From Clostridium massiliamazoniense (lineage in GTDB: Bacteria > Bacillota > Clostridia > Clostridiales > Clostridiaceae), in contig NZ_LN879468.1 of assembly GCF_001403635.1 (NCBI RefSeq), forward strand, positions 310,001 to 374,000: a stretch of DNA of 64,000 bases, read 5' to 3'. A program made the translations under genes and the position numbers. Below the pieces are notes generated by a model. The model searched no databases, was not told the origin of the DNA, and saw only the letters and a list, made by a program, of their open reading frames with translations. Of the stretch, positions 44,029 through 62,174 are shown piece by piece; position 1 is the stretch's first letter, and every line of letters begins with the position of its first letter.

Positions 44029-44280
44029 TTAAGTATATAATTTAGAAATTTCAGCAATTCCCAATATAAGAAAATCCTCTTTTAAGTAGGCATTGTTATT
44101 CTCTATATAGGTAATTACTCTGTGCATAATATTTCCTGTATATTTTTCATTTTCATATTCTTTAAGGATTAGAATATCTCCTATTTTAAAATCAATATTA
44201 TCATTTCGAACTAAAAATTTTTTTCTTCCAAAATAAATATCATTGAAATCCTTTTCTGATATATTCAATTTATATTCCAT
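44029..44280 (-). CDS. DUF3850 (ASCH-like) protein, 83 aa
   Basis: A small soluble protein with the DUF3850 order: MEYKLNISEKDFNDIYFGRK, then VRNDNIDFKIGDILILKEYEN and YTGNIMHRVITYI, resembling the ASCH/PUA-like RNA-binding fold. Function is unknown; RNA binding is suggested by the fold. Translation start is peculiar: the strong GGAGGTGA lies about 40 bases before the ATG at 44280, but a perfect 13-bp hairpin lies between, leaving only about 8 unpaired bases. An in-frame CTG at the hairpin base could be an alternative start. It is convergent with the carboxypeptidase. Confidence 0.75.
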   Translation of the reverse strand: MEYKLNISEKDFNDIYFGRKKFLVRNDNIDFKIGDILILKEYENEKYTGNIMHRVITYIENNNAYLKEDFLILGIAEISKLYT

Positions 44281-44330
44281 AAGATGCTGTTTAAAATAAT
44301 ATTTTGTTATTTTAAACAGTTCACCTCCTT
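44281..44330 (-). promoter_or_regulatory. ribosome binding site joined to its start codon by a hairpin
   Basis: On the minus strand: AAGGAGGTGAA (44330-44320), arm CTGTTTAAAATAA (44319-44307), 7-base loop, arm TTATTTTAAACAG (44299-44287), then CATCTT and the ATG at 44280. The 13-bp stem is perfect. The same layout occurs at 61891-61940. Confidence 0.75.
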
Positions 44331-61823: not shown

Positions 61824-61890
61824 ATTTAAGTAATTTACAAGAACATATAAATTTTAAATTTAATAATATATAACAAATGATTAATTTATA

Positions 61891-61940
61891 AGGAGGTGAA
61901 CTATTGCTAAATAAAGGATAAAGTTTAGCAATAGCCTCGA
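61891..61940 (+). promoter_or_regulatory. ribosome binding site joined to its start codon by a hairpin
   Basis: AGGAGGTGAA (61891-61900), arm CTATTGCTAAA (61901-61911), 12-base loop, arm TTTAGCAATAG (61924-61934), then CCTCGA and ATG. The stem is perfect (11 bp). An in-frame TAA at 61908-61910 rules out a longer protein. It has the same layout as 44281-44330 on the other strand. Confidence 0.75.
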
Positions 61941-62174
61941 ATGGATGGATATGAATTAATAATGAGAATTCAACAAAAAATACAAGAAGACCCTAATTTT
62001 GCAGCAAGATTTAATGAATTGGGCCAAAAATTAAACTCTATACCTGGACTTGAACAGGAAGTAATGAGAATAATTCAAATAAGTGATGAGAAAAAAAGAA
62101 AAAAAGCTATTGATAAATTGCCTAGCTCAGCTAAAAGAGCAGTTAGTGATTTTATGAAGTTAATTAACGAATAA
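61941..62174 (+). CDS. small helical protein, 77 aa, unknown
   Basis: I do not recognise the family. It is a soluble all-helical protein (MDGYELIMRIQQKIQEDPNF, then LNSIPGLEQEVMRIIQISDE), with a basic C-terminal part (KKRKKAIDKLPSSAKRAV) that may contact nucleic acid. The start is fixed by the in-frame stop at 61908-61910 and the layout of the ribosome binding site, which lies about 41 bases before the ATG with a perfect hairpin between. Another ATG eight bases on is out of frame. A very strong terminator follows. Confidence 0.75.
   Translation: MDGYELIMRIQQKIQEDPNFAARFNELGQKLNSIPGLEQEVMRIIQISDEKKRKKAIDKLPSSAKRAVSDFMKLINE

Follow-up and report, generated by a model that had tools for sequence, protein, structure and literature searches.

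Hairpins between the Shine-Dalgarno sequence and the start codon of two clostridial genes as probable relics of IS607-type insertions

Why does a perfect 13-bp stem lie between the ribosome-binding site and the start codon of a small clostridial gene, and why is the same arrangement found before a second, unrelated gene in the same window (the whole stretch of 64,000 nucleotides from Clostridium massiliamazoniense that was analysed)? The first hairpin is on the minus strand, upstream of a gene encoding an 83-aa DUF3850 protein (44029..44280; Pfam PF12961, E 1.6e-17). An AAGGAGG Shine-Dalgarno (SD) sequence (44324..44330), which we read as a pre-existing target that provides an AGGAG motif and a GG insertion point, is followed by a 37-nt insert (44287..44323) composed of TGAA, the 13-bp stem and a 7-nt loop; read directly from the sequence, positions 44330-44320 are AAGGAGGTGAA. 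The 5' arm CTGTTTAAAATAA (44319-44307) pairs perfectly with the 3' arm TTATTTTAAACAG (44299-44287) around the loop CAAAATA (44306-44300). The spacer CATCTT (44286-44281), which extends from the right end of the insert to the ATG (44280-44278), is able to pair with the SD. A preliminary description of this DNA had given the same layout.

The second hairpin is on the plus strand and precedes a gene of 77 aa (p77; 61941..62174, starting with the ATG at 61941) that has no Pfam family. Here AAGGAGGTGAA is read at 61890-61900, and its AAGGAGG SD (61890..61896), again taken as the target, is followed by a 38-nt insert (61897..61934) containing a stem of 12 bp (11 perfect pairs and one G-U) and a 10-nt loop. 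The arms are CTATTGCTAAAT (61901-61912) and GTTTAGCAATAG (61923-61934), and the CCUC of the spacer CCTCGA (61935..61940) is able to pair with the GAGG of the SD. The earlier observation that both loci have a common motif before the stem and six bases between stem and ATG is therefore borne out by AAGGAGGTGAA, CATCTT and CCTCGA. The p77 protein gives only sub-threshold matches to NCBIfam and PHROGs, and has one match per genome in 57 of 67 genomes of a related genus; it appears to be a conserved, unnamed small clostridial protein. A TTG within its stem (61904-61906, +), 7 nt past GGAGG, would be suitably spaced to act as a decoy start, which the stem would conceal.

The arrangement in the window is confirmed and greatly exceeds chance expectation. 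Each strand of the 64 kb has one copy of GGAGGTGA, located in both cases at these two hairpins, and each copy is followed by a hairpin of 12-13 bp, six bases and an ATG. The preliminary description had proposed a search with a descriptor of this kind, and one consisting of GGAGG, a perfect 11-bp stem and a start codon did match two sites in the window, compared with none in 100 dinucleotide shuffles. Among 1278 [AG]GGAGG sites in 1.62 Mb (the window plus 80 clostridial loci), 13 precede a stem of at least 9 bp, and a stem of at least 12 bp follows only the window's two. The predicted folds of both window regions beat 200 of 200 shuffles (z -4.6 for DUF3850 and -4.4 for p77). The six spacer bases also pair with the SD in these folds (GAGGUG/CAUCUU at DUF3850 and GAGG/CCUC at p77), a pairing predicted with a probability of 0.79 at both loci.

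Could the insert simply be part of the protein, with translation starting at a codon inside the stem? An in-frame CTG at the base of the DUF3850 stem had been put forward earlier as a potential real start. The codon is present, although it begins at 44319 rather than at 44318, and its frame is open through to the ATG. However, with the ATG as residue 1 the DUF3850 match extends over residues 4-75, corresponding to profile positions 3-77 of 77, and so begins after the ATG, which makes the CTG an unlikely start. At p77 the TTG has a suitable distance of 7 nt from GGAGG, but its frame closes after five codons, and the orthologous proteins align from the start codon corresponding to the ATG. We consider it extremely improbable that either insert is translated as part of its protein.

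The arrangement is not restricted to the window. Related genomes were reached via Clostridium loci that match the prismane-family gene of the window (best 82% identity). With a covariance model built from the two window sites, an hpt gene and the gene of a 51-aa zinc-ribbon protein were then located in other genomes, and the leaders of these two genes have AGGAGGTGA-CT-TTG in common. Searching the genus with this model gave 68 matches at E 1 or better, eight of which coincide with places matched by the pattern AGGAGGTGAHCTRTTK. Five covariance-model loci, picked via a second search (16 of 30 loci, 10 alignments), were read; two have the arrangement (hpt and zinc ribbon) and three do not. The shared motif is enriched on the larger scale as well: in 206 genomes of the family, AGGAGGTGAHCTRTTK gave 43 matches as against five for the reversed pattern, spread over 35 genomes, with six in one genome. 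All 43 were read. An insert followed by a start codon is present in 37, in which the AGGAGG next to the left end was demanded by the search pattern; five (L141-L144 and L148) are ordinary starts or coding sequence, and one (L161) runs into the end of a contig.

Inserts with the same left end thus recur before unrelated genes: 17 of the 37 sites precede the zinc-ribbon gene, three precede hpt and 17 precede other genes. The latter include, by Pfam, cold-shock (cspA), thymidine kinase (tdk), seryl-tRNA synthetase (serS), UDP-GlcNAc 2-epimerase, nickel-insertion, urocanase, P-type ATPase and GGDEF/EAL proteins, and the Pfam-matched genes behind the inserts have no evident common function. The 51-aa zinc-ribbon family (treble-clef, zf_Tbcl) has matches in 145 of 146 genomes, with up to nine per genome, and carries the SD hairpin at 17 loci (L122-L138). 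As for the DUF3850 insert, its first 13 nt after AGGAGG (TGAACTGTTTAAA) are identical in one of the relatives (L159). A class-level search with a slightly narrower pattern gave two of 291 genomes, both already found, and the left end accordingly looks confined to the family.

Orthologues of the genes concerned offer a view of the leader without the hairpin. For p77, 30 loci were fetched and 27 parsed: the insert is absent within 50 nt upstream in all 27, and an SD core lies 8-16 nt before the start in 24, the search pattern finding none in the other three (L275, L281 and L302). The leader of the closest orthologue reads GGGAGG-ATATA-ATG. The gene gave no match in viral contigs and is absent from the two closest genomes. 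For hpt, a search of 30 genomes returned 25 of 27 orthologues with an ordinary leader and two with the insert, and a third hpt insert came from the pattern search. The three share their left end and differ in length, with SD-to-start distances of 52, 109 and 128 nt. They look like stages in the decay of one old insertion, although it is possible that they represent independent insertions. A purine-rich SD lies directly before the start in 14 zinc-ribbon relatives, which may be paralogues. Pattern and tblastn searches of the genome contigs gave no orthologue of the DUF3850 gene, and therefore no empty site; the genus-level matches (9 of 68 genomes) have at most 40% identity, and GGAGGTGA is absent from these nine loci. 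Since no orthologue was found, the DUF3850 case rests on the shared left end and the shared anatomy.

A candidate source for such inserts is provided by the IS607 family. The part of PMC11061315 on which we draw describes RAGATH-18-derived RNAs that guide IS607-family TnpB nucleases, a target-adjacent motif (TAM) that is AGGAG in 18 and GAGGG in the other four of 22 strains, and AG-rich motifs adjoining the putative left ends of the elements; IS607 itself is described, in the relevant part of PMC6188088, as inserting at GG without target duplication and having GG at the element ends. The reported AGGAG motif is the Shine-Dalgarno core. RAGATH-18 (RF03064) lies inside five longer inserts that have the same left end (L146, L150, L151, L152 and L156), and relatives that carry tnpB are situated in comparable positions. 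For example, eight of the 20 RAGATH-18 matches in genome G106 were examined, and represent IS607-like elements of 1.7-2.0 kb. Their left ends adjoin a G-rich purine tract in 8/8 copies, which is exactly AGGAGG in three and consists of AGAGAGG, AAAGAGG or G runs in the other five. The right end is GTAACGG, and an ORF of at least 60 aa starts 6-16 nt further on in seven of the eight. A 381-aa tnpB frame is kept in five of these copies and a 207-aa tnpA-like frame in two. Pfam, run on L195 only among the G106 relatives, identified TnpB domains and a MerR-type HTH. A group II intron match in the same locus (L195:225-302) is barely above the cut-off and lies outside the IS607 element.

Proximity to a start codon extends beyond G106. 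With each of 30 genomes represented by its best copy, a start codon (ORF defined as before) was located within 17 nt of the right end in 22 of the 30 RAGATH-18 loci, compared with 1229 of 9000 random same-strand positions; the right-end patterns were selected with the sequences already known, and the control positions are random rather than matched intergenic ones. There is no close start codon in the remaining eight (L167, L168, L173, L174, L179, L187, L191 and L193). The left ends of 20 further elements, one of which has no right end, are convincing by eye in about eight, and are not independent evidence for the target because the script required purine tracts. At two loci of genome G135 (L208 and L209) RAGATH-18 is present and the left ends are not at an SD; both appear IStron-like by eye, an appearance that Rfam did not confirm.

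The ends link the short inserts to the longer elements only in part. No insert seen with the left end TGAACTGTTG exceeds 390 nt, longer copies having left ends that are related but different, and no tnpB-bearing element with exactly TGAACTGTTG was found among the elements examined. The right end GGCAACGG is common to TGAACTGTTG-type inserts and to copies with a TnpB-like frame. At the outer right margin the window inserts read CAG and TAG, with the left GG present, and the relatives CGG, TGG, TAG or CAG; the long copies read CGG, unlike those of the window. The AGGAG motif is next to the left end at both window sites. The 37-38 nt inserts have lost tnpA, tnpB and every other coding part as well as RAGATH-18, the window giving no Rfam match at the gathering threshold and hence neither RAGATH-18 nor a group I intron. 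As all IS607 parts are lost and the right ends are CAG and TAG, we do not file these inserts as members of IS607, but as probable relics.

How might the downstream gene be translated with such an insert in its leader? Across the 37 relatives and the two window sites, the distance from SD to start codon ranges ninefold, from 43 to 390 nt. When the SD and start codon were held unpaired, a single predicted helix spanned the insert in 39 of 39 minimum-energy folds, leaving 9-14 exterior unpaired bases in 32 and five in seven. The window sites, with linear distances of 43 and 44 nt, are each predicted to retain 10 exterior bases. One helix with at most 14 exterior bases was obtained for 35/35 real inserts (the 39 minus four zinc-ribbon rows with repeated inserts) and for 157 of 525 shuffled inserts, and with 30% of the latter also giving this result the test is only moderately demanding. 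Among the 17 zinc-ribbon leaders, of which 13 are distinct in sequence, pairing extends to 95.2% of cells and five pairs are altered on both sides, values that 0/500 shuffles reach in either case, although these counts are not probabilities because the sequences are related. Further pair types show no excess, the count being reached by 350 of 500 shuffles.

Our preferred explanation, to which we assign a probability of about 0.83 for the whole, including the looping-out of the insert near the SD, is that both hairpins are deletion relics of IS607-type insertions into SD sites. An IS607-type element, comprising a serine recombinase TnpA, a nuclease TnpB and a RAGATH-18 guide RNA, would insert at the GG of an AGGAGG SD; its complementary ends would pair in the mRNA, so that the insert folds as one stem and leaves some 10 unpaired bases between SD and AUG, and the ribosome could still use the old SD. 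Internal deletions would then remove the coding and RAGATH-18 parts, while the end-to-end stem would be kept or strengthened, because its loss would silence the gene. On this view GGAGGTGAAC would be the target (AGGAGG) joined to a mobile element's left end, and the stem would arise where the two ends of the element pair; the 37-nt DUF3850 insert presumably consists of the left and right ends of a deleted element. We infer that the window hairpins descend from such an element and that translation proceeds across the predicted fold. The TGA of the left end may also lengthen the match of the SD to 16S rRNA, for which we take the pairing sequence to be AAGGAGGTGA. We lean, with rather less assurance, towards the broader idea that a branch of IS607 has adopted the SD as its landing site, with TAM and GG crossover both inside AGGAGG and with ends that loop the insert out.

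The preliminary description had offered a different cause, regarding the occurrence of one structure on non-homologous genes as a structural rule that reflects a translation switch or an RNA-binding factor common to both. The rule itself stands; the proposed cause is not supported. In a regulatory hairpin the stem and spacer would hide the SD until temperature, a ligand or an RNA-binding protein opened them, and this would suit the SD-spacer pairing at both window loci and the zinc-ribbon stem, which is kept with compensatory change. Against this, the SD pairs with the spacer in only 10 of the 39 minimum-energy folds, those of both window sites included, and such pairing is therefore not a general rule (counting pairs with any partner, three or more SD bases are paired at 19 of 39 sites); the conserved SD sequestration of an RNA thermometer or riboswitch is not seen. 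Moreover, the ninefold range in SD-to-start distance is accompanied by variation in stem interior, loop and length, which would not suit a common factor either, the Pfam-matched genes share no evident function, and orthologues of p77 and hpt exist without the insert. We therefore regard a regulatory hairpin as unlikely in general. It is possible that a switch operates in the two window genes specifically, where the predicted SD-spacer pairing could lower translation.

Two further alternatives accept an insertion but differ as to its nature. The inserts might derive from a palindromic mobile element unrelated to IS607 that has the TGAACTGTTG end and the SD target by chance, and the small size of the window and zinc-ribbon inserts (about 35-40 nt) would accord with this, as would the failure to find a tnpB-bearing element with exactly that left end. 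We nevertheless judge it very unlikely, as the same left end accompanies RAGATH-18 in five elements and the right end GGCAACGG is also present on copies with a TnpB-like frame. Alternatively, the inserts might be introns or IStrons that leave the mRNA by self-splicing, so that no looping-out is needed; IS607-type IStrons that insert next to GG sites are indeed described in the part of PMC4227781 relevant here. No group I intron was detected, however, in 36 loci (among which two places appear twice) at the gathering threshold or in five of them at E 0.05, and a ribozyme would not fit into 37-38 nt, leaving self-splicing a highly improbable explanation.

Deletion relics of IS607-type insertions would combine features of several known systems. 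They resemble the IS607-family TnpB/RAGATH-18 systems, in which RAGATH-18 lies near the right end, TnpB is encoded and an AG-rich target adjoins the left end, but in the part of PMC11061315 considered here AGGAG is not tied to SD sites or to translation of the next gene, and neither the coding parts nor the RNA parts of those systems are present in the window inserts. In T4 genes 25 and 38, structure between SD and AUG shortens the spacing from 27 to 11 nt and from 22 to 5 nt, respectively, and translation across it has mutational support (PMC3014915, in part). The window sites have a comparable predicted structure that would shorten the SD-AUG distance to a working one; the T4 examples are phage genes, and the same portion of that paper mentions neither a mobile element nor ends that recur, nor any spread to genes that are unrelated. 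Group B IStrons share IS607-type mobility, a GG site and inverted repeats that pair the element ends in RNA (PMC4227781, in the part cited above), but they are made harmless by splicing, whereas the window-type insert seems to stay in the mRNA, and no group I intron was detected in the relatives or the window. IS607 insertion, the AGGAG motif and split ribosome-binding sites were thus already known separately. A literature search with subscription papers mostly outside its scope found nothing linking TnpB/IS607 elements with insertion at SD sites, which is weak evidence for novelty; in the portion of PMC13418256 covered, the relevant terms occur together but in unrelated places.

If this explanation is correct, the AGGAG TAM of RAGATH-18 TnpB nucleases gains a meaning as the core of the ribosome-binding site. 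It would account for the ability of these elements to lie immediately ahead of genes such as hpt and serS, and for the observation that 22 of the 30 RAGATH-18 copies end shortly before a start codon. RNA folding would be an alternative to intron splicing as a means of harmless insertion, and would leave ready-made split ribosome-binding sites in the genome. Such natural split sites, with their SD-to-start distances of 43 to 390 nt, could be utilised to measure the bridging of structured mRNA by the 30S subunit, and care is needed not to mistake leader hairpins of this type for riboswitches.

RAGATH-18 is well represented in the family, with matches in 92 of 200 genomes, 89 of them above the curated cut-off. 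Four genomes (G036, G052, G060 and G061) contain 12-20 matches each, several of which are located at contig ends, and this suggests recent spread that breaks the assemblies.
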